From positions 5,577,980 to 5,641,979 of the forward strand of contig NZ_KI912107.1 of assembly GCF_000517085.1 (NCBI RefSeq): a DNA stretch of 64,000 nucleotides, in the 5' to 3' direction. Origin of the DNA: Saccharicrinis fermentans DSM 9555 = JCM 21142. Lineage in GTDB: Bacteria > Bacteroidota > Bacteroidia > Bacteroidales > Marinilabiliaceae. Below the pieces are notes generated by a model. That model worked only from the letters and a program-made list of their open reading frames with translations. It was not told the DNA's origin and made no database searches. How positions within the stretch are numbered: the stretch's first letter is position 1; the number at the start of each line of letters is the position of its first letter. Made by a program: the position numbers and the translations under genes. Shown here piece after piece: positions 28,972 through 52,094 of this stretch.

Positions 28972-28987
28972 TAAAAAATTGAATAGC

Positions 28988-33896: not shown

Positions 33897-36194
33897 ATGA
33901 AGAATCTAATATTCTTTTTGTGGCTGGTATTTGTATTTAGTGCTTGCTGCCACAATCAAACAATATCGAAAGAAAATACGCCCATTGACTATACCAGTTA
34001 TGTGAATCCATTAATGGGAACTGATTCTGATTTTTCGCTCTCCAATGGGAATACCTATCCAGCGATTGCACGTCCGTGGGGAATGAATTTTTGGACACCA
34101 ATGACGGCTAAATTTGGTGATGGTTGGACTTATAAATATAGAGACTATCAGTTAACCGGTTTTAAACAAACCCATCAGCCGAGTCCTTGGATCAATGATT
34201 ATGCTGCATTTTCATTGATGGCTGTTACCGGTGATTTGGAATTTGAGGCAGAAAAAAGAGCTTCGTGGTATTCGCATAAAGCAGAAATTGTAAAACCTCA
34301 CTATTATAGTGTTTATTTAGCTGACTATGATACAAGAGTAGAAATTACACCAACAGAGAGAGCTGCAGCTTTTAAATTTACATTTCCACAAAATGAGCAT
34401 TCATACATTTTATTAGATGCTTTTAAAGGGGGGGCTATGGTCAAAGTGTTGCCCGAGGAAAGAAAAATTATTGGCTACTGTAGAAACAATAGTGGAGGTG
34501 TCCCAGATAATTTTCATAATTATTTTGTGGCTGAGTTTGATAAAGATTTTGAGATTATTCATACTTGGGATGGTGATCAATTGAAAAAGGGTTCAGCTTT
34601 TGCTCAAGCAGATGAAGTTGGGGCGGTCATTGGTTTTAAAACCAAAGCAGGTGAAGAAGTTCATGTAAAAGTAGCTTCTTCATTTATAAGTGCCGAACAA
34701 GCTCAATTAAATCTTGATCGAGAATTGGGAAATAAGTCTTTTGCTCAGGTAAAAGAGGAAGGTAAAACAGAATGGAACAAAGAATTAGGACGTATAAAGG
34801 TTGAAGGAAAGAATGTGGATCATATTCGTACTTTCTATTCTACGCTTTATCGTGTTTTGTTATTCCCTCGTAAGTTTTATGAGTTTAATAAAGATGATCA
34901 GATTGTTCATTATAGTCCTTATAATGGGGAAGTTCTTCCTGGTTATATGTTTACCGACAATGGCTTTTGGGATACTTTTAGAGCTGTTTTTCCATTTTTT
35001 ACATTGATGTATCCAGAATTGAATAGTCATATCATGGAAGGTTTAGCAAATACCTACGATGAAAGTGGTTGGTTGCCGGAGTGGGCTAGTCCAGGGCATA
35101 GAGGCTGTATGATAGGTTCCAATTCTGCATCCTTGATAGCCGATTCTTACCTCAAGGGAATCAAAGGCTATGATATTGAAAAACTTTATGAAGCGATTAT
35201 TAAAAATACGGACCATGTCAATAATCAAATAAATTCAGTGGGACGTTATGGTCATGATTATTATAACTCATTGGGGTATATACCATATGATGTAGGTGTA
35301 AATGAGAATGTAGCACGCACACTAGAATACGCCTATGCTGATTACTGTATTTGGAAGTTGGCTGAAAAGTTGGGCCGGCCTCAGCCTGAAATAGATTTGT
35401 TTAAGAAAAGAGCACAGAACTATAGAAAAGTTTTTGATAGGGAATCAGGTTGGATGCGAGGTCGTAACAAAGATGGTTCTTTTCAGGCTCCTTTTAATCC
35501 TTTTAAATGGGGTGATGCTTTTACTGAGGGAAATAGTGTGCACTATACCTGGAGTGTTTTTCAGGATGTTGAGGGACTGATTGGATTGATGGGAGGAGAT
35601 GAGGCTTTTGTAAGTAAGCTGGATACTGTTTTTAATCTGCCTCCTGTTTTTGATAATTCCTATTATGGTTTTACCATACATGAGATTCGTGAAATGCAGA
35701 TTGTAGGAATGGGAAATTATGCCCATGGTAATCAACCTATTCAGCATATGTTGTATCTATATAATTACGCAGGACAACCGTGGAAGACGCAAGAAAAAGT
35801 TCGTGAGGTAATGAATAAGCTTTATACACCCCATGCAGATGGGTATTGTGGAGATGAGGATAATGGACAAACATCAGCTTGGTATGTTTTTAGTTCTTTG
35901 GGTTTTTATCCTGTATGTCCGGGAACTGATCAGTACGTGCTTGGAGCTCCATTGTTTGATAAGGCTACCATAACCCTCGAGGATGGCAAAGAACTAATTA
36001 TTGAAGCGGTAAATAATAGTGATGAAAATAAATATGTTGAGCATGTTGATTTTAATGGCAATTCGTTAGATCGTAATTATTATACGCATGAAGAATTACA
36101 GAGTGGTGGGAAAATTACCATTGAAATGTCGCCTACTCCAAATAAAAAGAGAGGGGTCACCAAAGATGCAGCGCCATATTCTATGAGTAAATAG
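33897..36194 (+). CDS. GH92 alpha-1,2-mannosidase-like lipoprotein (GH92 copy 2)
   Basis: 765 aa with lipoprotein signal ending VFSACC. It has the GH92 beta-sandwich from VNPLMGTDSDFSLSNGNTYP and an (alpha/alpha)6 domain. The probable acid is Glu544 (FTEGNSVHYTW). From it, an adjacent His595-Glu596 pair (IHEIREM) lies at +51/+52 and Asp655 (GDEDNGQTSAW) at +111. These offsets equal those I recall for the alpha-1,2-mannosidase BT3990 (Glu533, His584-Glu585, Asp644), so alpha-1,2 specificity is predicted. Its loop reads GNQP where most other copies have GNEP. First gene of a run of GH92 genes with 70-110-nt gaps. Confidence 0.92.
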   Translation: MKNLIFFLWLVFVFSACCHNQTISKENTPIDYTSYVNPLMGTDSDFSLSNGNTYPAIARPWGMNFWTPMTAKFGDGWTYKYRDYQLTGFKQTHQPSPWINDYAAFSLMAVTGDLEFEAEKRASWYSHKAEIVKPHYYSVYLADYDTRVEITPTERAAAFKFTFPQNEHSYILLDAFKGGAMVKVLPEERKIIGYCRNNSGGVPDNFHNYFVAEFDKDFEIIHTWDGDQLKKGSAFAQADEVGAVIGFKTKAGEEVHVKVASSFISAEQAQLNLDRELGNKSFAQVKEEGKTEWNKELGRIKVEGKNVDHIRTFYSTLYRVLLFPRKFYEFNKDDQIVHYSPYNGEVLPGYMFTDNGFWDTFRAVFPFFTLMYPELNSHIMEGLANTYDESGWLPEWASPGHRGCMIGSNSASLIADSYLKGIKGYDIEKLYEAIIKNTDHVNNQINSVGRYGHDYYNSLGYIPYDVGVNENVARTLEYAYADYCIWKLAEKLGRPQPEIDLFKKRAQNYRKVFDRESGWMRGRNKDGSFQAPFNPFKWGDAFTEGNSVHYTWSVFQDVEGLIGLMGGDEAFVSKLDTVFNLPPVFDNSYYGFTIHEIREMQIVGMGNYAHGNQPIQHMLYLYNYAGQPWKTQEKVREVMNKLYTPHADGYCGDEDNGQTSAWYVFSSLGFYPVCPGTDQYVLGAPLFDKATITLEDGKELIIEAVNNSDENKYVEHVDFNGNSLDRNYYTHEELQSGGKITIEMSPTPNKKRGVTKDAAPYSMSK

Positions 36195-36308
36195 TTCTGA
36201 GTCGTTTGATATATGTGAATGTTTGTGTTATACGAATACTGAAAATAGGAAGTTTAGAAGTTCGAAGTGTTGGAATTTATGTGGAATGAGTTTGAATTAC
36301 ATTCAAAA

Positions 36309-39300
36309 ATGAATATTAAAAGTCTCCTAACAATCATCTTTTTTGCAGTGATATTTTGTGCCTGTGAGAGAGAATCTGCTAATCTTATTGGATATGTGGA
36401 TCCGATGATTGGTACAGATGGTATTGGACATACATTTCCGGGAGCTACCGTTCCTTTCGGAATGGTACAACTGAGTCCGTCAAATGATTTTAAATCGTGG
36501 AACTGGTGTTCTGGTTACCATTATTCTGATACTATTTTAAAAGGTTTTGCACATACACATATCAGTGGAGCTGGATTGGCCGGCTTAGGAGATATTTTAT
36601 TGATGCCAACTGTGGGGGTAGTTCAGTTAAATCCAGGAACAGAGGATGATCCGGCATCAGGTTATCGTTCCAGATTTTCGCATAAAAGTGAAAAAAGTAC
36701 GCCTGGTTATTATTCTGTTTTGTTGGACGATTACAATGTGAAAGTTGAATTGACAGCTTCTGAAAGAGTTGGATTTCATAGATACACAATGTCTAAACCA
36801 GGAGTGTTGAATGTTATCATAGATCCTACCCATAATATCATGGAAAGGATTGTAGAGACAGGTGTTGAAATTGTCTCAAATACTACACTAAGGGGATTTA
36901 AAAGATGTGAAGGGGAGGGAGGAGCAAGGACTGTTTATTTTTATGCGAAGTTTTCTAAACCTTTTGTATCTTATGGTGTAGCCAAGGGAGATAGTATAAT
37001 GGAAGGTGAAAAGAGGCTGAAGGGAACAAATACGAAAGCATATATCCAAGCGAAATTAAAGCATGATGAAGTGCTTGAAATCCAGGTGGCTTTATCTTTT
37101 GTTGGATATCAAGGGGCAAAGGCAAATTTGAATGCCGAGGTTCAAGGCAAGTCCTTTGATGATGTAAAACGATTGGCTCAAAGTAAGTGGGAAGAGAAAT
37201 TAAATAAGATGATCGTTACAGGTTCGTCACAAGCCGATAAAAGAACCTTTTATACAGCGATGTATCATTCATTTATATCACCTAACTTAATTTCAGATGT
37301 GGATGGGAGATATTGGTTAGAAGGTAAGGTCTATCAATCGGATTTTCCACAGTATTCAAATTTTTCTACCTGGGATACTTTCCGTGCTTTAAATCCATTG
37401 TTTACTATTGTTGAACAAGAAAAAACAGCTGAGTTTGTTAACTCTTTGGCAAGTAGATATACAGAAACAAAAGTAGGATTGCCGGTTTGGGAGTGTATGG
37501 GGCATGATAATGTTTGTATGATCGGATATAGTGCTGTTTCTCCAATGGTAGATGCAGCTTTAAAAAATATAAAGGGAATTCAACCTGAAGAAGTATATGA
37601 AGCAGTGAAGGCCGCTGCGATGTCGTTGGAGAAGCATTCTCCTAACTACGACAAAAATGGGATGGATTATTACTTAAAAATGGGCTATGTTCCTGGTGAG
37701 TTGAATTGTGCTGTGTCTAAAACAACCGAACAAAATTATTATGACTGGTGTATCTCAGCTTTGGCTGATCGCTTAGGTAAGAAAGATGATGCGGCGCTTT
37801 TTGCTGAACGAAGTGTTGGTTATAAAAATTTGTATAGATCCGATAAAAAACGTTTGTATTCTAAATATACAACCGGAGAATGGCGGGAAATGAAATTGAA
37901 TGTGTGGGATGACTTAATTGCCAATTATGTTTCTGGAAATATCTGGGGGTATTCGGCATTCGTGCCCCATGATGTAAATGGTCTAATGGAGTTGATAGGA
38001 GGTAAGGATGAATTTGCTAAGTGGTTGGATGATATTTTTTTAGATACGACTTCGATAGATGGACATACCCATGTGGATATCTCAGGTTTTATTGGAAAAT
38101 ATGGGCATGGAGATGAACCTTCGCAACATATGCCTTATTTGTATAATTATGCTGGTCAACCTTGGAAAACGCAAGAAAGAGTTCGACAAGTAATATCTGA
38201 ATTCTATCATGATAAACCTGATGGCCTTGTTAATAACGATGACTTGGGACAGATGTCAGCTTGGTATTTGTTTAGTGCGATGGGGTTTTACCCTGTCTGT
38301 CCCGGTGATATGAAATATATGATAGGTTCTCCATTATTTAAAAAAGTAGTTATTAACTTAGAGAATGGAAAGCAATGGATTATTAAAGCCAATAATGATC
38401 CAAAGAAAAATATTTATATTCAGTCTGTTACATTGAATGGGGAGCCATATACTAAATCATACTTGACCCATGAGCAGATAATGAATGGTGGTAATCTGGT
38501 GTTTGAAATGGGGGCTGCTCCTAACAAAAAATGGGGTGTTTTACCCGAAGATAGACCAATATCTAAAGTACATACCGAAAAGGCCAATCGCTTACCTCAA
38601 ATTACTCATAAACCATTTGATAAAGATAGGAGTGAGGTATTCGAAGAGGCCTATCAGGTAAAACTGGTATGTAATACAGAGAAGGCTGACATTTATTATA
38701 CCCTGAATGGTGACATACCCCATAAAAATAGTAAACGTTACAAAAAGCCGTTCGTCATTCATAAAACAACAAATTTAAAAGCCATTGCATATGCTGATGG
38801 TATGCAGCCTAGTTTTGTTTATGATCGCACTTATTATGCAGGAAGAAGATTTGGAGACTTGAAAGATGGATTTCCTCGAATTACGATGATTACCAGGCCT
38901 AAAAAGTTCGGCGATTCAGATGGTAATATGTTGATGGATTTAAAAGTGGGGTCGGGAAGTTTTAATGATGGTAGATGGACTGGATTTGACGGTGAAGATA
39001 TGGTAGCGACCATTGATTTTGGGCAAGCAATATCCATCGACAATGTAAGTATTGGATATTTATCCAATACAGCAGTTTGGATTTTTCCTCCATCAGCCAT
39101 GGTCATTAGAGCTTCCTTGGATGATGATAAATATGAAATAATAGGTTCGAAGAAATGGAGGTTTTCGCAAGAAGAGCTGGAAGGACCTTTCGTGAAAAGA
39201 GAAGAGTTTACTTTTAAGAGTCAAAAAATCAGATACCTTAATATTGAAGTTTCAAACTATGGGATAGTACCTGATTGGCATGCTGCAGCAGGACATAAGG

Positions 39301-39335
39301 GTTGGATGTTTGTTGATGAGATCTTGATTAATTAG
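36309..39335 (+). CDS. GH92 protein with C-terminal chitobiase-like and discoidin-like modules (copy 3); acid Glu replaced by Ser
   Basis: 1008 aa from ATG 36309 (an in-frame ATG 42 nt earlier would spoil the signal). The signal MNIKSLLTIIFFAVIFCAC is followed by a GH92 unit from DPMIGTDGIGHTFPGATVPFG. At the site where the other five copies have Glu ten residues before the V-x-x-D block, this one has Ser542 (NYVSGNIWGYSAFVPHD). The Asp pair NNDDLGQMSAW and the GDEPSQH loop remain. After about residue 740 come a chitobiase-type Ig-like module (YYTLNGDIPHKNSKRYKKPF) and an F5/8-type C (discoidin) module ending IRYLNIEVSNYG. It may be inactive, specialised, or a binding protein. Confidence 0.9.
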   Translation: MNIKSLLTIIFFAVIFCACERESANLIGYVDPMIGTDGIGHTFPGATVPFGMVQLSPSNDFKSWNWCSGYHYSDTILKGFAHTHISGAGLAGLGDILLMPTVGVVQLNPGTEDDPASGYRSRFSHKSEKSTPGYYSVLLDDYNVKVELTASERVGFHRYTMSKPGVLNVIIDPTHNIMERIVETGVEIVSNTTLRGFKRCEGEGGARTVYFYAKFSKPFVSYGVAKGDSIMEGEKRLKGTNTKAYIQAKLKHDEVLEIQVALSFVGYQGAKANLNAEVQGKSFDDVKRLAQSKWEEKLNKMIVTGSSQADKRTFYTAMYHSFISPNLISDVDGRYWLEGKVYQSDFPQYSNFSTWDTFRALNPLFTIVEQEKTAEFVNSLASRYTETKVGLPVWECMGHDNVCMIGYSAVSPMVDAALKNIKGIQPEEVYEAVKAAAMSLEKHSPNYDKNGMDYYLKMGYVPGELNCAVSKTTEQNYYDWCISALADRLGKKDDAALFAERSVGYKNLYRSDKKRLYSKYTTGEWREMKLNVWDDLIANYVSGNIWGYSAFVPHDVNGLMELIGGKDEFAKWLDDIFLDTTSIDGHTHVDISGFIGKYGHGDEPSQHMPYLYNYAGQPWKTQERVRQVISEFYHDKPDGLVNNDDLGQMSAWYLFSAMGFYPVCPGDMKYMIGSPLFKKVVINLENGKQWIIKANNDPKKNIYIQSVTLNGEPYTKSYLTHEQIMNGGNLVFEMGAAPNKKWGVLPEDRPISKVHTEKANRLPQITHKPFDKDRSEVFEEAYQVKLVCNTEKADIYYTLNGDIPHKNSKRYKKPFVIHKTTNLKAIAYADGMQPSFVYDRTYYAGRRFGDLKDGFPRITMITRPKKFGDSDGNMLMDLKVGSGSFNDGRWTGFDGEDMVATIDFGQAISIDNVSIGYLSNTAVWIFPPSAMVIRASLDDDKYEIIGSKKWRFSQEELEGPFVKREEFTFKSQKIRYLNIEVSNYGIVPDWHAAAGHKGWMFVDEILIN

Positions 39336-39413
39336 AAATTATGTGAGAGTATGGGTTCTAATGGCTGAATTGGTGATGATATGTGTTAGAGAACTAAAAA
39401 GTAAGTGTGATAA

Positions 39414-41672
39414 ATGATGATGGTGAATAAACTAAAATATATAGTAGTCCTATTAATGGTATTTGAGGTAGCTGCATTTTGTCAGAATTATACGCAATAT
39501 GTTAATCCATTTATAGGAACAACGAATTTTGGTACAACAAATCCAGGAGCCATTGTTCCACAGGCAATGGTTTCTGTAGTACCATTTAATGTTACAGGTT
39601 CAGATCTGAATAAGTGGGATAAAGACGCCCGTTGGTGGTCAACACCTTATTCTTGGGATAATCAGTTTTTAACAGGTTTTTCTCATGTCAATCTTAGTGG
39701 AGTAGGGTGTCCTGATTTAGGGGTAATAATGGTAATGCCAACGACGGGTACTGTTGATGCCAATCTTAAACATTATGGATCTATAATGTCCGGGCAAAGG
39801 GCAGAGCCCGGATATTATACCTGTAAGCTGGAGAAATACAATGTGAAAGCAGAAGTTACTTCGACCAAAAGAACGGGCTTGAGTAAATTTACTTTTCCGA
39901 AAGGAGAATCTAATATTATTATTGACCTAGGTAACAGTCTCACCAATGAGTCGGGTGCTTATGTAAAAGTTGTAAGTGATCGCGAAGTAGAAGGTTGGAG
40001 AATGACTGGTAACTTCTGTTACCACGGAAATTCGGAGCGTCCAGTTTATTTTGTGGCTCGTTTCAATAAACCAGCTACCTCTTTTGGAGCTTTTAAAAAA
40101 ATGCCTGCCATGATGGGGGCAGAAAAGGATTGGTCTGCAAGCTCAGGTAAGTTTAAATACTATACACAATTTCTTCATCCTCTAGCTGGTGATAGTATAG
40201 GTGCATATTTTTCTTTTGATACAGATGCCGGTGAGTCTGTAATGGTTCAAGTAGGGATATCATATGTAAGTATTGCAAATGCCCGGCAGAATCTGGAATA
40301 TGAATCCAATGGATTTTCTTTTGAAAAAACCCGAAATGAGGCTCGAGAGGAATGGAATAATGTTCTTTCAAAAGTTAGAGTGGAAGGAGGAACTGAGGAT
40401 CAGAAAACTGTTTTCTATACGGCTTTATACCATATGAATATTCATCCCAACATCATCAACGATGTGAATGGACAATATCCAATGATGGAAAGTTATGGTA
40501 TTGGAGAAGTGAAAGATAGGGATCGATATACTGTTTTTTCTCTTTGGGATACGTACCGGAATTTCCATCCTTTGATGAGTTTGTTATATCCTGAAAAACA
40601 GTTGGATATGGTTCGCTCTATGGTGGATATGTACAAGGAAGGCGGCTGGTTACCTAAATGGGAACTGAATAGCAAAGAGACCTATACGATGAATGGGGAT
40701 CCTTCATTTCCTGTTATAACGGATACTTATTTACGTGGATTAACCGATTTTGATGTACAAACGGCCTATGAGGCCATGTTAAAGTCTGCCACAACTCCTC
40801 AAAAGGATAATAAGATTAGGACAAATAATGATTTTTATTTACAGAAGGGCTATGTGCCTTTTACTGAGGATTATGACAACTCAGTGTCAATAGCTTTGGA
40901 GCTTTATCTGGCAGATTGGAATTTGGGTGTTTTGGCTAACAAGTTAGGATATAGAAAAGAAGGGAAAAGATTTATTAGTCAATCCAAAGGATATAAAAAC
41001 TACTTTGATAAGAAGACTTTTAAAATGCTTCGACCTAAAAAAGCAGATGGAACTTTTATTGCTGATTTCGATCCCTTGCAAGGACAGAATTTTGAACCAG
41101 TGCATGGTTTTCATGAAGGTACTGCCTGGCAATATACCTTTGGAGTACCCCATGATATCAATGGCTTAATCAAGTTAAATGGTGGAGGAAAGCAATTTGC
41201 AAAAAAGCTGCAAGATATTTTTGACCATCAATTATTTGATATGGCCAATGAGCCGGATATGCATTACCCTTTTTTGTTTAACTATGTGAAAGGTCAGGAA
41301 TGGAGAGCGCAAAAAGAAGTACAAAGACTTTTGGATACTTATTTTAAAAACGAACCTGGAGGTATTCCCGGGAATGATGATTGTGGAACCATGAGTGCAT
41401 GGGTAGCCTATAGTATGATGGGGTTTTATCCCGTTTGTCCTGGAGATATGAATTACACGATTACGAAACCTGTATTTGATAAAGTAACTATTGAGCTAGA
41501 TGCTCGGTTTTATGCCGATTCAACATTTCAAATCATCAAGCATTCAGGAGCTGATAAGGAATATATTAAAAGTATAAGGTGGAATGGACAAGCTGTTAAA
41601 TCTTTTTTCATTCATCATGATAGGGTAGTTAATGGAGGAAAGCTTGAAATTCATATGGGAGAAAAGGAATGA
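39414..41672 (+). CDS. GH92 alpha-mannosidase (GH92 copy 4)
   Basis: 752 aa; start may be any of the first three Met (39414, 39417, 39420). The signal peptide is cleaved near AAFC-Q, probably type I, since Phe before Cys is unusual for a lipobox; it is thus likely periplasmic. The protein starts NYTQYVNPFIGTTNFGTTNPGA. The probable acid Glu is in FHEGTAWQYTF, the loop is ANEPDMHYPFLFNY, and the Asp pair is GNDDCGTMSAW. The AWWSTPYSW-type N-terminal insertion and the PDMHY loop separate it from the other copies, so a different linkage preference is plausible. Co-directional with and close to the flanking genes. Confidence 0.92.
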   Translation: MMMVNKLKYIVVLLMVFEVAAFCQNYTQYVNPFIGTTNFGTTNPGAIVPQAMVSVVPFNVTGSDLNKWDKDARWWSTPYSWDNQFLTGFSHVNLSGVGCPDLGVIMVMPTTGTVDANLKHYGSIMSGQRAEPGYYTCKLEKYNVKAEVTSTKRTGLSKFTFPKGESNIIIDLGNSLTNESGAYVKVVSDREVEGWRMTGNFCYHGNSERPVYFVARFNKPATSFGAFKKMPAMMGAEKDWSASSGKFKYYTQFLHPLAGDSIGAYFSFDTDAGESVMVQVGISYVSIANARQNLEYESNGFSFEKTRNEAREEWNNVLSKVRVEGGTEDQKTVFYTALYHMNIHPNIINDVNGQYPMMESYGIGEVKDRDRYTVFSLWDTYRNFHPLMSLLYPEKQLDMVRSMVDMYKEGGWLPKWELNSKETYTMNGDPSFPVITDTYLRGLTDFDVQTAYEAMLKSATTPQKDNKIRTNNDFYLQKGYVPFTEDYDNSVSIALELYLADWNLGVLANKLGYRKEGKRFISQSKGYKNYFDKKTFKMLRPKKADGTFIADFDPLQGQNFEPVHGFHEGTAWQYTFGVPHDINGLIKLNGGGKQFAKKLQDIFDHQLFDMANEPDMHYPFLFNYVKGQEWRAQKEVQRLLDTYFKNEPGGIPGNDDCGTMSAWVAYSMMGFYPVCPGDMNYTITKPVFDKVTIELDARFYADSTFQIIKHSGADKEYIKSIRWNGQAVKSFFIHHDRVVNGGKLEIHMGEKE

Positions 41673-41730: not shown

Positions 41731-42486
41731 ATGAAGCGGAATAGTTTTGAACTTGAGATATGTGCAGCGAATATCCAATCTGTAATAGCGGCAGATAAAG
41801 GTGGGGCTGATAGAGTAGAGCTTTGTGATAATTTAATAGAAGGAGGAACAACACCTTCTTTAGGGATTATTTCTGTGGCTAAAGAGATGGCTTCTCTGGA
41901 TGTTTTTCCCATGATTCGACCACGGGGTGGTAATTTTGTTTATGATGATATTGAACAGGAAATTATGTTACGGGATATAAAGCTGGCAGTAGAAAGAGGT
42001 GCAGATGGAATAGTCATAGGAGCTTTAACGGTTAATGGAGCAATTGATTATGATTTTTGTTGTAGGTTGATTGAAGCAGCCAGAGGATTGCCCATCACTT
42101 TTCACCGTGCTTTCGATCAGTGTAAACAGCCATTTGTTGCCTTAGAGATATTAATATCTATGGGGGTTAAACGATTATTAACCTCGGGACAGAAGAATAA
42201 GGCTATAGATGGAGTCGATTTGATAAGTATGTTGCAAAAAAGTGCAGCAAATAGCTTACAAGTGATGCCCGGGAGTGGTATTGATGAAAATAATATCACT
42301 AAGCTGGCACAGCAAACAGGTGTAAAAGCTTTTCATGCTTCTTTACGTGATATATACAAGCAGGAACCTGTTTATACACGCAGCGAAGTGAGGTTTAATG
42401 GATCTAAGGATTTGCCAGAAAACCAAGTGAAGACATCCAATATAAAGAGAATTAAAAGTATAATTAGCGAAATAGAAAGAATATGA
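41731..42486 (+). CDS. cutC: CutC-family protein
   Basis: 251-aa TIM-barrel protein, cytoplasmic, of the family named for E. coli CutC (copper homeostasis), though that role is disputed. It begins FELEICAANIQSVIAADKGG and has RVELCDNLIEGGTTPS, MIRPRGGNFVYDD, TFHRAFDQ and LLTSGQ, all classic CutC blocks. Its stop codon overlaps the start of the transglutaminase-fold lipoprotein by ATGA, and it follows a GH92 gene by 58 nt. Location inside a mannosidase operon suggests a sugar-related enzymatic role rather than copper handling. That is inference. Confidence 0.9.
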   Translation: MKRNSFELEICAANIQSVIAADKGGADRVELCDNLIEGGTTPSLGIISVAKEMASLDVFPMIRPRGGNFVYDDIEQEIMLRDIKLAVERGADGIVIGALTVNGAIDYDFCCRLIEAARGLPITFHRAFDQCKQPFVALEILISMGVKRLLTSGQKNKAIDGVDLISMLQKSAANSLQVMPGSGIDENNITKLAQQTGVKAFHASLRDIYKQEPVYTRSEVRFNGSKDLPENQVKTSNIKRIKSIISEIERI

Positions 42487-45071
42487 AATATAATGATATT
42501 CTAAAACCTATGTTTATTCTTTTATTGGTGGTATTAATGCTGCCACAGATGGGATGCGATAATAGTGTAAGTAACGACAATAGTAGAGTTATAGAACGCG
42601 ATTTTCAGCAAGTATATAAGAAATATAAAGATCAGAATAAGACGCTGTTTTCTGTTTTTCAAAAAAAAATGACTGAAAAAGAAAAGTTTTATCTGAAGTT
42701 TCTTTATGCGTATATGCCACTGAACGATATGGCTGATTATCCGGGTGAATTTTTTCTAAATAATGTGCGATTAGCCATGGCAGCCAGAGATTCATTTAGC
42801 TGGGGATCATCGATTTCTGAGGATGTTTTTCTCCATTTTGTGCTTCCGTATAGGGTAAATAATGAAAACTTAGATACTGCACGGATCGTATTTTTTAAAG
42901 AGTTGTATCCTCGTATTAAGGATTTACCGATTGAGCAAGCAGCCCTTGAGGTAAACCATTGGTGTCATGAAAAAGTAAATTATCAGCCAACAGATTCGCG
43001 TACTATTTCTCCTTTGGGAGCTATTAAAACGGCTTATGGTCGGTGTGGAGAAGAATCCACTTTTGCAGTAACAGCGATGCGTTCTGTAGGTATTCCTGCC
43101 CGGCAGGTTTATACCCCTCGTTGGGCTCATGTTGATGATAATCACGCATGGGTTGAAGTTTGGGTGAATGGTAGATGGCAGTATCTGGGAGCTTGTGAGC
43201 CGGAGCCGGTTTTAAATATGGGGTGGTTTGACGCACCGGTATTACGCGCTATGATGGTGTATACAAAAGCTTTTGGAAAATACATGGGTGAAGAGAATGT
43301 GATTGATTCACAGAATAAGTATGCCACTCTTAATTCTCTTCATAATTATGCGCCAACAAAGGATATTTGGGTAAAAATTCAAGGAGAAGAAGAGACTCAC
43401 ATTGAGTTTGGTTTGTATAATTATGCCGAATTTTTTCCTATCAAGAGCCAGGATATAAAGGCAGGAGCGTTTGCACATATTAAAACAGGATTAGGAGATA
43501 TAAGAGTTTTTGCCTCCAACAAATCGGGGCATTTTGCTATTAAAAAAATCAACGTATCAGACGTGGACACGGTTTTTATCGAGCTGGATAAAAGGGTGGG
43601 TAATGAATTTAATATGTCGTTCGAAAATGTTCCTCCGGTTGAAAAAAAGCCAGCCTCTGTTGATGCTGTAGGAACCCAAGCAAATAAAAAACGTTTGTCA
43701 GAAGAAGATCAAATAAGGAGTGATTTTATTAGTTCTTTTTACGACCGTGAGAGGCTAAAGGTATTGGCCAAAGAGATAGGACTAAATGCGGATACGCTTT
43801 GGCCTTATATGAAAGAAGCAAGAGGTAACTATTCTGAAATTGAATTATTTTTAAAGAAGGGTGTACAGGTCAATAAGCAAAACCTTATTCCGCTGTTGCA
43901 AGTTATTGCTAAAAAAGATTTGCACGATGTTTCTGCTGATGTGTTGTTGGATCATTTAAAGTGGTTTAAAATATTTAATGGAATAGAGTGTGATCATAGA
44001 TTGGTTAATAAGTATATTTTAAATCCTAGAATTTATTTAGAAGGGCTTTCTCCTTACCGTGCCTTTTTACAAAAGGCTTTTGATCAGATTACTAAAGATG
44101 ATGTCTCAAAAGCTGTTAAAGAAGTTGTTGTTTGGATCAATGGCCATATCATGGTTGATGAAAGCAGTAATTATTACAAGGTAAATATCTCTCCCCAAGG
44201 AGTTTTTAATATGAAAACATGTGATAGTTTTAGTCGTAAGTTGTTTTTTATCGCGACTCTTCGTTCGTTGGGTATCCCTGCTCGTTTAGAGCCGGCAACT
44301 CATGAGGCGCAGTATTTTAACAATAAATGGATTAATATAAGCTTTGATCAAAGTTATAAAAACGATCAGCCTGAGATGGCTAAAGTGAAATTTGCAGCTG
44401 ATGAAGATTATGATATAGAACCTTTATATCGTGTTCATTTTAGTATCGCAAAGTTTAAGGACGGAAGGTTTCAGACGCTTCATTACGATTGGGAAAAACC
44501 ATTGTCATCATTTCCTGAAGAAATTGAAATAGAGGCGGGTTATTACCAATTGCTGACAGGAAATAGAATGGAGGATGGTTCTGTACTGGTAAATCAACAA
44601 TTTGTCAATATAGAGCCTGGCAGTCAACAAGAGTTAAAGATCAAGATAAATGAAGACAGAAAAGCGTTGAAGGAAATAGCCTGTTGTAAATCATTCAATC
44701 TAAATGATAGTCTTTCTGTGTTAGGATGGATTGATCCTGGTTCAGAACCGGGGAATCATTTTTTTAATGACTTTAAATCATTGAGAGATACCTATGAATC
44801 GGCGAAAGTGCCATTTACTTTTTTCTGTACAGATAAAAGTATGAAGGCAGAAATTGTTGAAAATACTTATGAGGGCTGTATTGTGAAGGAAGATAGTGAC
44901 TTGATTGTACTTAAAGCGTTTTATGAGCAAACTAAATTGTCCCGTGAAATTCAGCTTCCGGTATTTGTGGTGGTAGATAATAATGGTGAGGTGTATTATC
45001 ATTCGTCAGGATATAATATTGGCACGTCCGAACAGCTATTAAAGATATATAAACGGTTACTCTTGCAATAG
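42483..45071 (+). CDS. secreted transglutaminase-fold lipoprotein
   Basis: 862 aa with lipoprotein signal ending LPQMGC. The transglutaminase-like core is at about 150-290: Cys188 in YGRCGEES, His221 in DDNHAWVEVW, and GACEPEP at 236-242. The RCGE and CE pieces resemble eukaryotic transglutaminase-fold peptide:N-glycanase, but the position aligned with the catalytic Asp is Gly236, so Glu239 or Glu241 may stand in. A second, degenerate transglutaminase-like segment runs at about 570-635 (Cys580; ATHEAQYF; NISFD). The C-terminal about 100 residues look thioredoxin-like (LPVFVVVDNNGEVYYH). It overlaps cutC by 4 nt. Function unproven; a protease, amidase or deglycosylase acting on glycoproteins would fit. 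Confidence 0.85.
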   Translation: MKYNDILKPMFILLLVVLMLPQMGCDNSVSNDNSRVIERDFQQVYKKYKDQNKTLFSVFQKKMTEKEKFYLKFLYAYMPLNDMADYPGEFFLNNVRLAMAARDSFSWGSSISEDVFLHFVLPYRVNNENLDTARIVFFKELYPRIKDLPIEQAALEVNHWCHEKVNYQPTDSRTISPLGAIKTAYGRCGEESTFAVTAMRSVGIPARQVYTPRWAHVDDNHAWVEVWVNGRWQYLGACEPEPVLNMGWFDAPVLRAMMVYTKAFGKYMGEENVIDSQNKYATLNSLHNYAPTKDIWVKIQGEEETHIEFGLYNYAEFFPIKSQDIKAGAFAHIKTGLGDIRVFASNKSGHFAIKKINVSDVDTVFIELDKRVGNEFNMSFENVPPVEKKPASVDAVGTQANKKRLSEEDQIRSDFISSFYDRERLKVLAKEIGLNADTLWPYMKEARGNYSEIELFLKKGVQVNKQNLIPLLQVIAKKDLHDVSADVLLDHLKWFKIFNGIECDHRLVNKYILNPRIYLEGLSPYRAFLQKAFDQITKDDVSKAVKEVVVWINGHIMVDESSNYYKVNISPQGVFNMKTCDSFSRKLFFIATLRSLGIPARLEPATHEAQYFNNKWINISFDQSYKNDQPEMAKVKFAADEDYDIEPLYRVHFSIAKFKDGRFQTLHYDWEKPLSSFPEEIEIEAGYYQLLTGNRMEDGSVLVNQQFVNIEPGSQQELKIKINEDRKALKEIACCKSFNLNDSLSVLGWIDPGSEPGNHFFNDFKSLRDTYESAKVPFTFFCTDKSMKAEIVENTYEGCIVKEDSDLIVLKAFYEQTKLSREIQLPVFVVVDNNGEVYYHSSGYNIGTSEQLLKIYKRLLLQ

Positions 45072-45149: not shown

Positions 45150-46466
45150 ATGATAAAAAAAGGAAATAGGGAAGGGCATCCTGCTTTTTGGGTTCCCTCG
45201 GTATATTTTGCAATGGGATTACCATTTATTGCCATTGCTCAGGCATCTGCTTTGATGTATAAAAACATGGGTATAAGTGATACGCAAATTGCTTTGTGGA
45301 CCTCCTTGATCATGCTTCCATGGACATTGAAGCCCCTGTGGAGTCCAGTTTTAGAGATGTTTAAAACAAAAAAGCATTTTGTGGTAGCGACTCAGTTGGT
45401 TACAGGAATTACCTTTGCTTTAGTTGCTTTGTCTTTACCATTGAATCATTTTTTTAGTTATTCCATAGCATTGTTAGGGGTAATTGCATTTAGTGGTTCT
45501 ACGCATGATATTGCAACAGATGGTCTTTATCTAAGTGTCCTTTCTCCTAAGTTACAAGCTAAATACATTGGTTGGCAGGGGGCCGCTTATAATGTTGCTA
45601 AAATTGTATCTGCAGGAGGGGTGGTCTATTTAGCTGGAGTTTTAGAGGAGTCTTTGGGGGTTAAATATGCTTGGATGATTGTGATGGGTATTTATGGTGG
45701 AGTAATGTTTATGTTGGGATTGTATCATATTAAAATGTTACCAAGTGGAGGTGAAGCTACAGAAGTAAAGTCGTTTAGCGAGGGAGTGGAAACATTGGTG
45801 GATGTGATAAAGACGTTTTTTCAGAAAAAATTTATCGGTTGGTATATCATGTTTATTGTTCTGTTTCGATTTGCCGAAGGATTTGCCATTAAAATTGCAC
45901 CATTGTTTTTTAAGGCTGCTAATACCGAGGGGGGGTTAGATCTTCCAACCAAGGAAATTGGTTTGGTTTATGGAACATTTGGTGCCGCAGCTTTTGTTTT
46001 AGGATCCCTACTGGGAGGCTATTTTATCTCCTCCAAAGGTTTGAAAAGAACACTCTTTAAATTGGCATTGGTTTTTAATATACCATTTGGAGTTTACTTG
46101 TTCTTGGCTTTTTATCAACCCGAAAATATTTATATAATTTCAGGAGCTGTGATAGTAGAATATTTTGGATATGGCTTTGGTTTTGTGGGTCTTATGTTGT
46201 TTATGATGCAGCAGATTGCGCCTGGAAAATATAAAACAGCCCATTATGCTTTTGCGTCAGGAATCATGAATTTAGGCTTTATGATTCCATCGATGTTAAG
46301 TGGTTATTTAAGTGATTTATTAGGATATAAAGTGTTTTTTATCTGGGTTTTAGTGGCTACGGTTCCTGCTTTATTGGTGGCTTATTTTGTGCCGTTTACC
46401 TACGAGGATCCAGAAAAGAATCAGAATGATGTTAAAAGGAATAAAGAAATAGATTATGTTGAGTAA
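45150..46466 (+). CDS. MFS transporter, AmpG/PAT-like
   Basis: Inner-membrane porter of 438 aa with about 12 hydrophobic helices. It starts [20 protein letters not shown] and carries the helix-2 region [19 protein letters not shown], typical of the AmpG-like branch that moves GlcNAc-containing disaccharides. The gene end overlaps the GH130 phosphorylase gene by 11 nt. The pair therefore reads as importer plus cytoplasmic phosphorylase for Man-beta-1,4-GlcNAc. Substrate is inferred from this coupling. Confidence 0.88.
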
Positions 46467-47427
46467 AAATAGAATTCCCTGGCAAGAAAAACCAGAAGGC
46501 AGTAAGGATGTTATGTGGCGGTATTCCGAGAATCCTATTATCGGAAGGTATGAAACAGCTACGTCTAATAGTATTTTTAATAGTGCTGTTGTTCCCTATG
46601 AAGATGGTTTTGCGGGTGTGTTTAGGTGTGATAATAAATCCGTACAAATGAATATACATGCAGGTTTTAGTGAAGATGGAATACATTGGAATATTGAGGA
46701 TGACCCCATTGTGATGAAGGAAGGGAATACTTCTATGATAGATTCTGATTATAAATACGACCCGCGTGTTACTTTTATTGAGGATAGGTATTGGGTAACC
46801 TGGTGTAATGGTTATCATGGACCAACGATTGGTATTGCTTATACATTCGATTTTAAGGAATTTTTTCAGTGTGAAAATGCATTTTTACCTTTTAACAGAA
46901 ATGGAGTGCTCTTTCCTGAGAAAATAAATGGGAAGTATTGTATGTTGAGCAGACCAAGTGATAATGGACATACTGCCTTTGGAAATATCCATTTAAGTTA
47001 TAGTCCGGATATGAAATATTGGGGAGAGCATCGCTCTGTTTTAAAAGTAACTGCTTTTGAGGATAGTGCTTGGCAATGTCTGAAAGTAGGTGCGGGTGGT
47101 GTGCCTATTAAGACCCATGAGGGATGGCTGATGTTTTACCATGGAGTTATCAAAACATGTAGCGGGTTCCGTTATTCAATGGGAGCTGCTTTGTTAGATT
47201 TGGAACAGCCAGATAAAGTATTGTATCGCTCCCAACCATATTTGTTGGCCCCTGCGGTTGATTATGAGCAGAATGGTGATGTGCCCAACGTGATTTTTCC
47301 GTGTGCTTCATTGCACGACGAAGAAGGAAAAGTAACGGTGTACTATGGGGCCGCTGACTCTGTTGTGGGAATCGCCTTTGGTCGTATCCCTGAGATTATT
47401 GAGTGGTTAAAAAATAATTCTATCTAG
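46456..47427 (+). CDS. GH130 beta-1,4-mannosyl-GlcNAc phosphorylase-like
   Basis: Inverting phosphorylase, 323 aa, no signal peptide, so cytoplasmic. The five-bladed propeller hallmarks are present: [11 protein letters not shown], the general-acid region [27 protein letters not shown], and the closing [15 protein letters not shown]. The family splits Man-beta-1,4-GlcNAc or related mannosides to alpha-mannose-1-phosphate. In a locus with GH85 and GH92, Man-beta-1,4-GlcNAc(-GlcNAc) is the expected substrate. Its start lies inside the MFS gene, implying coupled translation. Confidence 0.92.
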
Positions 47428-47496: not shown

Positions 47497-49695
47497 ATGA
47501 AACGATTACATATATATATATCTTTGTCTGTTCTGGCTTTCTTTTCATGCCAGAATAAAAATGTTGACTTAACAAAGGAAGGCCATATTTTAACATCTTA
47601 TGTTGATCCATTTATTGGTACTGATGGACCAGGGAATACTTATCCAGGTGCTGTTATGCCTTGGGGAATGGTACAACTAAGTCCGGATAATGGGCTGGCC
47701 GGCTGGGATAGAATAGCTGGTTATTACTGGCAGGATTCAACCATTGCAGGTTTTAGTCATAAGCATTTAAGTGGAACAGGTGCTGGTGATTTATATGATA
47801 TATTGATAATGCCATATAATAGTAGGTTTACGAAGGATTTATGGCCTGATCAAAAGGAATATCGTCCTTACGCACAGTTTAGTCATGATCAAGAAGAGGC
47901 TGTTCCAGGCTATTACGCTGTTGATTTATTAAGTTCTGGTATAAAAGCTGAGTTGACGACCACTGAAAGAGTGGGCCTTCATCGGTACACTTTCCCCAAG
48001 GATAAGGAGTCTAAGATTTTATTGGATCTTGGATATAAATTAAACTGGGATGAGCCAACAGAAACGTATTTAAAATTAGAAGATGAGCATACTATTGTGG
48101 GATATCGATATTCCACGGGGTGGGCACCAGATCAGCGAGAGCATTTTGTTTTAAAAATATCCAGGCCAATAAAAAATATTGTTTTTTATGCGGGGGAAGA
48201 AAAAGTGGATGCACATAAAGTAAAAGCCACTAAAACAAAGGCCGAAATTATTTTTTCTTCAGATGAAAATGAGCAGGTAATCATTAAGTTAGCTTTGTCT
48301 TCTCACTCCATTGAGGGCGCAAAAAGAAATATGGAGTCGGAGTGCCCAGACTGGGATTTTGACCAAGTGAAGTCTTCTGCTTTAAGAGCGTGGAACAGAC
48401 AGTTGGGAATGGTTGAAGTAAAGGGAAGTGAAGATCAAAAAAAGATATTTTATACCAATTTATACCACTGCTTTTTAACCCCGTCCTTGCACGCTGATGT
48501 GGATGGTATGTATAAGGGAGCGGATGGTCATATGCATCAGGCTATTGGGTATGAAAAAATGGAAACATTTTCGCTTTGGGATACTTATCGAACTGCACAT
48601 CCTCTCTATACCATTCTGGCACCTGAAAAGGTCAGTGATATGGTACGGTCGTTTTTAAGTCACTATGATGAAACAGGCTTGCTCCCTGTTTGGAGTATGG
48701 CTGGTAATGAAACGAATATGATGATTGGTTACCATTCCGTTCCTGTTATTGTGGATGCCTATTTTAAAGGAATCCCAATGAATGCCCAAAAAGCATTTGA
48801 GGCCTGTAAAGCCACTGCCATGAGTGATGCATGGAGCTTGAAGGATTATAAGAAGTATGGGTATGTGCCGGCTGATGATCAAAGTAATGGACATTGGAGT
48901 GTGTCTAAAACACTAGAATATGCATATGATGATGGGTGCATCGCTGTTTTTGCAAAGGCATTAAATAAAATAGAAGATTACAAGTATTTTAAGCAGAGAG
49001 CCGATAATTGGAAGCATTTGTATGACAAGGAATCAACTTTCTTTCGACCAAGAAAGAAAGATGGCTCATTTGTTAAACCTTTTAGCCCCAAGGAATATAC
49101 TGAGTATTATTGTGAGAGTAATGCCTGGCAGTATTTTTGGCATGTACAACACGATATTCCAGGTCTGATTCAACTGTTAGGTAAGAAAGCATTTGTGGCT
49201 AAACTAGATTCTATGTTTAGTTATGAACACGAAGCAGGTGATAAATTACCTATTTTTTCAACGGGTATGATAGGACAATATGCCCATGGTAATGAGCCTA
49301 GTCATCACGTAGCCTATTTGTATAATCAAATAGGGCAGCCCGAGAAGACACAGAAGATGGTTCGTAAGATCATAGAATCACAATATAGTATTAAACCGGA
49401 TGGCTATTGTGGAAATGAGGACTGTGGACAGATGTCTGCTTGGCTGGTGATGTCTGCATTGGGTTTGTATCCGGTGAATCCTGCCAATGGTGTATACCAC
49501 CTCACTTCACCTTGGGTGGAGGAAGCCACTATCCATCTGCCCAATGGTAAAAATTTCTCCATTAAAACGAAAAGTAAAGGAGAGAACAAAATATTGATAG
49601 ACGCAGTTCATCTCAATGGAAAAGAAATGGAGATGTTGACAATTACCCATCAACAGTTAATGGATGGAGGAGAATTGCTTTTTATGTTGAAGTAA
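47497..49695 (+). CDS. GH92 alpha-mannosidase, lipoprotein (GH92 copy 5)
   Basis: 732 aa with lipoprotein signal ending AFFSC. The GH92 unit starts SYVDPFIGTDGPGNTYPGA and contains ESNAWQYFW (acid Glu), HGNEPSHHVAYLYN and GNEDCGQMSAW, all intact. The motif set matches copy 1 most closely, suggesting a related specificity. It lies 69 nt after GH130 and 83 nt before the NagB-like gene, so it is probably in the same operon. Confidence 0.93.
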   Translation: MKRLHIYISLSVLAFFSCQNKNVDLTKEGHILTSYVDPFIGTDGPGNTYPGAVMPWGMVQLSPDNGLAGWDRIAGYYWQDSTIAGFSHKHLSGTGAGDLYDILIMPYNSRFTKDLWPDQKEYRPYAQFSHDQEEAVPGYYAVDLLSSGIKAELTTTERVGLHRYTFPKDKESKILLDLGYKLNWDEPTETYLKLEDEHTIVGYRYSTGWAPDQREHFVLKISRPIKNIVFYAGEEKVDAHKVKATKTKAEIIFSSDENEQVIIKLALSSHSIEGAKRNMESECPDWDFDQVKSSALRAWNRQLGMVEVKGSEDQKKIFYTNLYHCFLTPSLHADVDGMYKGADGHMHQAIGYEKMETFSLWDTYRTAHPLYTILAPEKVSDMVRSFLSHYDETGLLPVWSMAGNETNMMIGYHSVPVIVDAYFKGIPMNAQKAFEACKATAMSDAWSLKDYKKYGYVPADDQSNGHWSVSKTLEYAYDDGCIAVFAKALNKIEDYKYFKQRADNWKHLYDKESTFFRPRKKDGSFVKPFSPKEYTEYYCESNAWQYFWHVQHDIPGLIQLLGKKAFVAKLDSMFSYEHEAGDKLPIFSTGMIGQYAHGNEPSHHVAYLYNQIGQPEKTQKMVRKIIESQYSIKPDGYCGNEDCGQMSAWLVMSALGLYPVNPANGVYHLTSPWVEEATIHLPNGKNFSIKTKSKGENKILIDAVHLNGKEMEMLTITHQQLMDGGELLFMLK

Positions 49696-49778: not shown

Positions 49779-52094
49779 ATGGTTACTAGATTTTCGCCCG
49801 TTGAAGAGCTATTCTTTCATAAATCAGGCGTTAAAAAAACAAGTACTAAAATACCGTATATTACGGTTGATAATTTTCCTCAGCTTGGAATGTTTACAGC
49901 ATTTCGGTTTTTAGAGTGGGTTGCAGATAACCCAGAGGGTGTAATCAGTTTGCCTACAGGTAAAACGCCTGAGTATTTTATTCGTTGGACGCAATATTTG
50001 TTGGAGAATTGGAACAATGCAAAGGGGAAGAAAATTAGAGAAGAGCATGGTTTGAAAATTGACAAAAAACCGGATTTAAGTAAACTACATTTTGTTCAGA
50101 TTGATGAATTTTATCCGGTGAGTTCTTCTCAGAAAAACAGTTTTTATCATTATGTAAATGAATTTTACATCAAGGGGTTTGGCCTTGATCCTGATCGGGC
50201 ATTGTTGATTAATTGTGATCAGATTCCCTTGGTTGATGGCAAAAAATTTGCAGAGGTTTTTCCTGATAGTATTGTTGATTTGTCATTGCGTTATCGTGAG
50301 GCGAAAAGCAAAAAGGAAAAAGAGCAGCAGGACTCAATTTTTATGATTGATGATTGGTGTGTGAAGTATGAACGAAAAATTAGAGAAAAGGGTGGTATTG
50401 GATTCTTTTTGGGCGGTATTGGACCAGATGGACATATTGCTTTTAATACACGCGGTTCTGATCATTTTTCCACTACTCGTTTGACGGGTACCAATTTTGA
50501 AACGCAAGCACAGGCTGCCGGAGATCTTGGTGGTATTGAAGTGTCACGTAATCGTTTGGTTATTACCATAGGACTGGAGTCTATCACTTACAATAAGGAA
50601 GCTGTGGCGATTCTTTTTGCTGCTGGTGAAGCAAAGGCTCCTGTGGTAAAAAATGCCCTTGAAAGTGAGCTGTCGGTGTTATACCCTGCTACTGTGTTGC
50701 AGGCTTTGCCGAATAGTAAGTTCTATATTACCAAAAGTGCTGGTGTTAAGTTGAAAGATAGTGTTGAGGCTTACTACAAAACAGGTGAGTGGACAAAGGA
50801 AAAAACAGAGCGAGCTATTATTGATTTGTGTAAAAGAATTAATAAATATGGTCCTAAACTGGAACTTGCAGATCTGAAGTCGGATCCCTACTGCAGTATG
50901 ATACCTGACTTATCGCTGGATACGATTCAGGAAGTGATGGAGTCTGTTCAGTCTAAATTATTGAAAGGAATACAACAGGAGAAAAATCAGGTTTTTTATC
51001 ATACCGGACCGCATCATGATGATATACCGTTGGGTATGCAACCACATGTAAACAGAATACTGAGGGAGCCTAGTAATAAATCTGTTTTTTCGGTGCTTAC
51101 TTCTGGGTTTACAGCGGTTACAAATCGTTTTGTGACTGAAACATTGGATTGTACCAAGAAATTATTGGATGAAGGAAGAATTCAGATGATTAAGTTTCCT
51201 GATTTTTTTGAATCAGGTTATAAGTACAAGTGGGACAAAGATGTGTATCATTTTCTTTTGCATGTGGCTTCAGATGAATCTTTGGAGAGAGTCAGGGGAC
51301 TTTGTCACAGGGTGGTCAGAGCTATTGTTGAAATATGGGCTGTAAGAGATTATGAAGAGCTTAGAAATACTATCAATGCAATTTTATCTAATATACGCGA
51401 TAGTTACGATGGACAAAAGAATCCGCCTAAAATACAGAAGTTAAAGGGCATGATTCGTGAGTTTGAGGAGGAACTGGTCTGGGCACACTCGGGAGTGCAA
51501 GTAAAAAATGTTCGTCACCTTCGTTTGGGTTTTTATACAGGAGATATCTTTACGGAGCAACCCAATAGAGAACGAGATGTTACACCTATCCTAGAAGAGT
51601 TTAGGAAAGAGAAACCTAATGTGATCAGCTTGGCATTGGATCCGGAAGGAAGTGGACCGGATACGCATTATAAGGTTCTTCAGGCCATTGCTGATGCTAT
51701 CCGATTGTGGAATAAGGAAGCGGATTTGAGTGAACTGCGCATCTGGGGGTATCGAAATGTTTGGTTTAAATTTGCTCCCTCAGAGGCCAACGTTATGGTT
51801 CCTGTAAGTTTGAATGCCATGGATGTTTTGGATAAATCATTTAGTGATTGTTATTTGAGTCAGGTCAATGCTTCTTTTCCTAGTTATGAGTTGGATGGTA
51901 GATTTAGTACTCTGGCAAAAAATATTTGGGTAGAGCAATTGGAAACTGTTCAGTATTTGTTAGGTAAAGATTACTTCTATACACACGAAAACCCAAGCAT
52001 CAGAGCCAGTCATGGACTGATCTTTTTTAAGGAGATGAATGTAGAAGAGTTTTTACTTCATGCACGAGAACTGGAAAAGTCAATGGAGGGTTAA
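49779..52094 (+). CDS. NagB-like glucosamine-6-phosphate deaminase fused to a PIG-L/LmbE deacetylase domain
   Basis: 771-aa cytoplasmic two-domain protein. Residues about 35-345 form a NagB-like isomerase/deaminase: LPTGKTPEYF, FVQIDEFYPV, GIGPDGHIAFN and ATVLQAL. Residues about 405-700 form a PIG-L/LmbE deacetylase-type domain with the metal motif TGPHHDDIPLG. Such long NagB-like proteins are known in Bacteroidota and could deacetylate and deaminate GlcNAc-6-phosphate, i.e. combine NagA and NagB chemistry. That combined activity is inference, and no separate nagA is seen here. It is the last gene of the operon, before a terminator. Confidence 0.9.
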   Translation: MVTRFSPVEELFFHKSGVKKTSTKIPYITVDNFPQLGMFTAFRFLEWVADNPEGVISLPTGKTPEYFIRWTQYLLENWNNAKGKKIREEHGLKIDKKPDLSKLHFVQIDEFYPVSSSQKNSFYHYVNEFYIKGFGLDPDRALLINCDQIPLVDGKKFAEVFPDSIVDLSLRYREAKSKKEKEQQDSIFMIDDWCVKYERKIREKGGIGFFLGGIGPDGHIAFNTRGSDHFSTTRLTGTNFETQAQAAGDLGGIEVSRNRLVITIGLESITYNKEAVAILFAAGEAKAPVVKNALESELSVLYPATVLQALPNSKFYITKSAGVKLKDSVEAYYKTGEWTKEKTERAIIDLCKRINKYGPKLELADLKSDPYCSMIPDLSLDTIQEVMESVQSKLLKGIQQEKNQVFYHTGPHHDDIPLGMQPHVNRILREPSNKSVFSVLTSGFTAVTNRFVTETLDCTKKLLDEGRIQMIKFPDFFESGYKYKWDKDVYHFLLHVASDESLERVRGLCHRVVRAIVEIWAVRDYEELRNTINAILSNIRDSYDGQKNPPKIQKLKGMIREFEEELVWAHSGVQVKNVRHLRLGFYTGDIFTEQPNRERDVTPILEEFRKEKPNVISLALDPEGSGPDTHYKVLQAIADAIRLWNKEADLSELRIWGYRNVWFKFAPSEANVMVPVSLNAMDVLDKSFSDCYLSQVNASFPSYELDGRFSTLAKNIWVEQLETVQYLLGKDYFYTHENPSIRASHGLIFFKEMNVEEFLLHARELEKSMEG

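Follow-up and report, generated by a model that had tools for sequence, protein, structure and literature searches.

The window analyzed here is a 64,000-nucleotide stretch of the Saccharicrinis fermentans DSM 9555 genome (contig NZ_KI912107.1, positions 5,577,980 to 5,641,979), which carries an N-glycan utilization locus. The gene under study, TGL (42483..45071, plus strand, as are all features of the locus given below), encodes a transglutaminase-fold protein of 862 residues that we propose to be an amide hydrolase acting on the bond between N-acetylglucosamine and asparagine (GlcNAc-Asn). Its start codon overlaps the stop codon of its partner gene cutC (41731..42486, PF03932) within the sequence ATGA. 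Upstream lie a gene of the GH85 endo-beta-N-acetylglucosaminidase family (23408..25399, PF03644, E 2e-84), a SusC/SusD pair (25891..30556) and three GH92 genes in a row (33897..41672; individually 33897-36194, 36267-39335 and 39414-41672). Downstream are an AmpG-like transporter of the major facilitator superfamily (MFS; 45150..46466, TIGR00901, E 9.7e-40, under the curated cut-off), a gene of the GH130 mannoside phosphorylase family (46456..47427), another GH92 gene (47497..49695) and a NagB-like gene resembling glucosamine-6-phosphate deaminase (49779..52094; NF002557, E 2.5e-54, under the curated cut-off, with a weak Pfam match of E 0.0057). Beyond it follow another GH92 gene and GntR, ROK and MFS genes. 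The domain scan of the window covered 25 of the 32 open reading frames (ORFs) of at least 200 residues. The link of TGL to cutC by an ATGA overlap between GH92 genes, which had been reported in a first-pass annotation of the sequence, is thus confirmed.

The TGL ORF was confirmed as real. PF01841 (Transglut_core) was the only Pfam family above the cut-off (E 7.8e-26, over the gathering score, in two stretches); the same scan detected no PF01112 domain, and no NCBIfam model matched up to E 1. The protein begins with an N-terminal signal (42483..42557) ending at Cys25, a residue found in 67 of the 80 sequences of our TGL alignment. TGL is probably a lipoprotein, although a strict lipobox is present in only 49 of these 80 rows and is lacking in the window's own protein. 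N-terminal helices and the catalytic transglutaminase-fold core follow (residues 33-290, 42579..43352), with the codons of Cys188 at 43044-43046, His221 at 43143-43145, Gly236 at 43188-43190 and Glu239 at 43197-43199. Cys188 and His221 are kept in all 80 sequences, and their surroundings in the core are invariant too. The usual catalytic Asp is replaced by Gly, and this Gly aligns with the Asp of both the solved protein 3isr and the peptide:N-glycanases (PNGases). The core is followed by a small beta domain (residues 293-370, 43359..43592), a second, degenerate transglutaminase-like core with no conserved Cys or His (residues 541-618, 44103..44336) and a thioredoxin-fold tail (residues 730-862, 44670..45068). 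In the tail an invariant E-P-x-x-H replaces CxxC (residues 755-759, 44745-44759, 80 of 80 sequences), and no CxxC motif occurs anywhere in the 862 residues. The first-pass annotation had described a secreted protein with this Cys/His core, a Gly for the Asp, a second degenerate core and a thioredoxin-like tail, and each of these features was recovered. At least 582 stretches encoding a relative were found.

The TGL core was modelled alone because matches to the thioredoxin tail dominated the VIA search with the complete protein. The resemblance to eukaryotic PNGase that had been noted earlier concerns the fold class; in structure the core is nearer to transglutaminases than to PNGases. None of the best 50 Foldseek matches of the core was a PNGase; PNGases did appear in the VIA list. 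By sequence, the core was closest to 3isr (E 6e-6), a PF01841 protein from Cytophaga hutchinsonii deposited as a "putative cysteine protease", which retains Asp where TGL has Gly. The PF01841 superfamily, including 3isr and human transglutaminase 3, is not known to be linked to glycans or to CutC. NGLY1/Png1 (1x3w, 3esw, 2f4m) shares with TGL the transglutaminase fold class and the GRCGE, HxWxE and (in the mouse enzyme) ACE motifs. NGLY1/Png1 has two zinc-binding CxxC pairs; TGL differs from it in lacking these pairs, in having Gly for the catalytic Asp, hence no Cys-His-Asp triad, and in being secreted. TGL has in addition the extra beta domain, the degenerate second core and the thioredoxin-fold tail. 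The beta domain belongs to the same family as 3e8v, a solved Bacteroides fragilis fragment titled "possible transglutaminase-family protein". This entry covers residues 289-370 of an apparent TGL-family member (profile E 5e-28); the solved part is the small beta domain only, and its title names no function.

The distribution of TGL was assayed in a sample of 178 genomes spanning the order to which S. fermentans belongs. TGL was found in 58 of them, as a single match in 57 and as two adjacent ORFs in one (G080); 8 of the 59 matches contain one or two stop codons within the matched stretch. CutC was present in 77 genomes and GH92 in 123. CutC accompanied TGL in 55 of the 58 TGL genomes, as compared with 22 of the 120 genomes without TGL (odds ratio 82, p 4e-24), and the association persisted among GH92-positive genomes only (54/56 with TGL vs 21/67 without). 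GH92 was itself found in 56 of 58 TGL genomes vs 67 of 120 others, and in 75 of 77 CutC genomes vs 48 of the 101 lacking CutC. At least 13 families contain genomes with and without TGL. Among the 13 listed, CutC was present with TGL in 13 and absent without TGL in 12, the exception being family f17. Because CutC follows TGL in 12 of these 13 mixed families, it is unlikely that relatedness accounts for the whole link. The two match starts were at most 3.5 kb apart in 20 of the 55 TGL-CutC pairs, and 26 pairs were split between contigs. In a further sample of 49 TGL genomes, at least three of them shared with the order sample, CutC was present in 41. CutC is also present in E. coli and occurs in humans; it is named for copper, although its role in copper handling is doubtful.

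CutC can lie beside an asparaginase-like gene, and this prompted us to look at PF01112. The family matched in 60 of the 178 order genomes, and 15 of these carry a distinct class corresponding to glycosylasparaginase (AspG), separated by PF01112 score (200-237 bits) from isoaspartyl peptidases (311-402 bits). Three short fragments were left unclassed (G113, 76 bits; G052, 63 bits; G118, 46 bits), the first two in TGL genomes; the G113 genome, met again as G506 in the 49-genome sample, gave no match there. Of the order's 15 AspG genes, 14 were analyzed as loci, G118 being left out because it lies at a contig end, and 12 entered alignment A3. The profile built from these 12 matched a solved glycosylasparaginase in the PDB with E ~1e-149. 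No AspG-class gene was found with PF01112 or the AspG profile in any of the 58 and 49 TGL genomes, the fragments in G113 and G052 apart. The 49-genome sample gave 13 matches in 12 genomes, which were read as peptidases since their scores (79-191 bits) lie below those of AspG in the phylum (274-547 bits). Conversely, TGL was absent from all 15 AspG genomes of the order (p 0.003), and the 11 families with AspG and the 42 with TGL have none in common. As a negative control, the isoaspartyl-peptidase class, from the same Pfam family as AspG, showed no association with TGL (20/58 TGL vs 34/120 non-TGL genomes, p 0.49; 54 genomes by score, fragments excluded).

AspG also shares the partner of TGL. 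Among order genomes lacking TGL, CutC was found in 9 of 15 with AspG vs 13 of 105 without (p 1e-4). In a phylum sample of 296 genomes, TGL occurred in 2 (both without AspG), AspG in 129 and CutC in 92. AspG and CutC were found together in 82 genomes, AspG alone in 47, CutC alone in 10 and neither in 157, so that AspG was present in 82 of the 92 CutC genomes. The pairs shared one contig in 51 cases, with starts at most 2.5 kb apart in 42. Around the 14 AspG loci of the order, GH20 was labelled in 5 (also identified by Pfam), sugar-type MFS in 4, GH2 in 3, CutC in 3 and GH92 in 2, so that some AspG loci resemble TGL loci in these neighbors. The MFS protein of one of them (L083) scored over the gluP curated cut-off and matched the GlcNAc transporter NagP under its cut-off. 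Together, the CutC link, the shared neighbors and the mutual absence show that TGL stands where AspG stands. CutC, for its part, looks like a component of GlcNAc-Asn catabolism in the phylum.

The gene neighborhood of TGL was surveyed in 80 relatives with fetched flanks (1.38 Mb in total); many of the loci are truncated at contig ends, and many come from metagenome-assembled genomes. Neighbors were labelled from BLAST matches to a small set of reference proteins, a procedure that misses distant members. CutC was labelled in 20 loci, GH92 in 8, MFS (three pooled sugar-type groups) in 8, GH31 in 6 and GH20 in 3, when the density in the 58 TGL genomes predicts 1.2 GH92 and 0.3 CutC in 1.38 Mb (the GH92 figure being slightly low, as at most 8 were counted per genome). 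A looser cluster count had placed GH92 near 10 loci; two of these were unverified fragments and the cluster included a GH97 protein, and the value of 8 was used. These counts place most TGL loci outside glycan loci and make CutC the most frequent recognized neighbor. The idea put forward in the first-pass annotation is partly supported: a role at the glycopeptide stub is favored, but GH92 was seen near only 8 of the 80 relatives. A Pfam tally of 105 of the 136 qualifying operon neighbors, CutC excluded, returned 146 families, including GH92 (6), MFS (5), GH31 (4), radical SAM (4), GH20 (2), alpha-fucosidase (2) and glucosamine isomerase (2). One locus (L060) has the gene order GH20-TGL-CutC.

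The genome of the window encodes GH85, GH92 and, outside the window, a PNGase F-II-like enzyme (match to 4r4x, E 6e-137), and no PF01112 match was found in it. GH85 leaves GlcNAc on Asn, and the GlcNAc-Asn bond is the step left unfilled. In a study of Lactobacillus casei (PMC6960285), a glycosylasparaginase hydrolyses GlcNAc-Asn into Asp and 1-amino-GlcNAc, the latter being described as not metabolizable and as breaking down at acid pH. PMC12381499 reports an asparaginase in a probable N-glycan operon of Runella zeae, together with a PNGase and a GH18 enzyme. On this basis TGL was placed at the unfilled step, and we consider it probable that it fills the step of AspG, namely hydrolysis of GlcNAc-Asn after N-glycan trimming. 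We infer the following scheme for its substrate, chemistry and location. Exo-mannosidases (GH92), GH2 and GH20 enzymes and the GH85 endo-glycosidase would strip the N-glycan down to a GlcNAc stub. TGL, as a cell-surface or periplasmic lipoprotein amidase, would then cut the GlcNAc-Asn amide on peptides or on free Asn. Cys188 would serve as nucleophile and His221 as base, with another group, for which Glu239 of the GACE motif is a candidate, in the place of the usual Asp. Hydrolysis would yield Asp (or an Asp-peptide) together with 1-amino-GlcNAc, and the latter would give GlcNAc and ammonia before import and use. In the cytosol, CutC would take part later in the pathway; our guess, which fits its place beside both amidases, is that it handles 1-amino-GlcNAc or a later product.

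In its order, TGL would replace an unrelated enzyme. AspG (EC 3.5.1.26; 3ljq, 9gaa, 1p4k; L. casei AsnA2) has the same CutC partner, and TGL is predicted to cut the same bond. However, AspG is an autoproteolytic Ntn-hydrolase of about 330 residues with a Thr nucleophile, whereas TGL is Cys-based and has about 870 residues; no sequence relation between them was found. The Elizabethkingia glycosylasparaginase carries a signal peptide, according to PMC6960285. A broader scheme, which we put forward only tentatively and regard as doubtful, would make AspG and TGL unrelated amidases of a single pathway, with CutC as the shared partner acting on their common product, 1-amino-GlcNAc or a derivative (also the product of PNGases). 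TGL would then be a novel GlcNAc-Asn hydrolase that depends on Cys and lacks the usual Asp, and TGL, AspG and CutC would form the module by which the phylum catabolizes GlcNAc-Asn. If TGL does act on GlcNAc-Asn, a widespread family would be given a function, apparently for the first time, an enzyme would be identified for the final step of N-glycan use in the order, and CutC would receive a testable pathway. It would also be a clear example of an enzyme that has taken the place of an unrelated one next to a shared partner gene.

Several observations weigh against the assignment to GlcNAc-Asn. The sequence similarity of the core to PNGase is marginal, its structural similarity to transglutaminases exceeds that to PNGases, and Gly occupies the place of the usual catalytic Asp in 80 of 80 sequences. 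No recognized GH92 was seen in the flanks of 72 of the 80 loci, 35 of the 55 TGL-CutC pairs are not close, and CutC is missing from 3 of the 58 and 8 of the 49 TGL genomes. The exclusivity of TGL and AspG inside the order reaches only p 0.003 and may owe something to phylogeny. Moreover, over all 178 order genomes the AspG-CutC link is not significant (9/15 vs 68/163, p 0.19), because TGL there holds most of the CutC. Finally, CutC occurs with neither amidase in 13 of 77 order genomes and 8 of 92 phylum genomes, which may hide a third amidase or another role of CutC. Inspection by eye of 12 of the 13 order genomes (L102-L113) revealed no third amidase; the 13 are G016, G034, G043, G057, G068, G099, G100, G104, G110, G140, G152, G157 and G159. 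In titles and abstract openings, with subscription papers and preprints outside the scope, we found no literature tying the TGL family or CutC to N-glycans or to glycosylasparaginase.

Three other functions were weighed. TGL could be a secreted peptide:N-glycanase that, like NGLY1/Png1, acts on proteins or long peptides and frees their N-glycans entire, or glycans that contain GlcNAc. The fold of PNGase F, PNGase F-II and PNGaseL differs from that of TGL. These enzymes (PNGase F-II, 4r4x; PNGaseL, PMC12381499) and TGL are nevertheless alike in the predicted hydrolysis of an N-glycan amide. We regard the peptide:N-glycanase function as unlikely, since TGL has Gly for the catalytic Asp and no CxxC pairs, and its closest folds are transglutaminases. 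Furthermore, the PNGase F-II-like gene elsewhere in the window genome makes a PNGase stand-in role for TGL less likely. PNGase F was also tried as the alternative to TGL and rejected: PF09113 matched in 62 genomes, 45 of which had weaker matches only and were left out of the count, and 13 of the 17 order genomes with strong matches (>140 bits) also have TGL (13 of the 58 TGL genomes, the window's own included), so that the two co-occur rather than substitute for each other. Of the two roles suggested in the first-pass annotation, freeing glycans or cutting the glycopeptide left after GH85, it is thus the action on the stub that is favored.

The match to the putative cysteine protease 3isr would suit a second role, in which TGL, as a cysteine glycopeptidase, removes the peptide residues flanking GlcNAc-Asn and leaves the amide bond to another enzyme. 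Such trimming leaves GlcNAc-Asn intact, and AspG would be expected alongside TGL; it was found in neither set of TGL genomes, which makes this function quite improbable. Finally, TGL might leave the glycan-Asn bond uncut and share some other process with CutC, either as a lipoprotein with a binding or handling role or as an enzyme that acts on a different amide or ester. This would account for a link to CutC stronger than that to GH92 and for the position of most loci outside glycan loci; the degenerate second core and the cysteine-free thioredoxin fold also resemble binding modules. Nevertheless, an invariant Cys/His core and surround is typical of catalysis, and CutC itself follows GH92 in the order and AspG in the phylum. 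We consider this last possibility improbable, and hydrolysis of GlcNAc-Asn in the place of AspG remains our preferred function for TGL.

Additional observations were made on the neighbors of these genes. A 1235-residue ORF (L078:8915-12622) combines a CBM9-like domain with TGL; the signal of TGL itself seems to be missing there, and the ORF may be a natural fusion of two genes. A CBM9-like protein is also encoded near TGL in L014, L022, L024, L053, L064 and L119. In the window genome, the PNGase F-II-like gene (L122:7268-8992) is followed 98 bases downstream by a CBM9-like gene (L122:9091-10194) whose product is 39-47% identical to its CBM9-like relatives; both lie at G000:C3 ~5.89 Mb. In two TGL genomes with TGL elsewhere (L114 and L120), NTP-transferase-like and Mur-ligase-like genes stand beside cutC (Pfam seen for L120 only). 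Within the window, mutS is split into two ORFs, 13078-14676 (domains I-IV) and 14681-15700 (domain V), by a stop near 14675, reflecting either a sequence frameshift or a broken gene.
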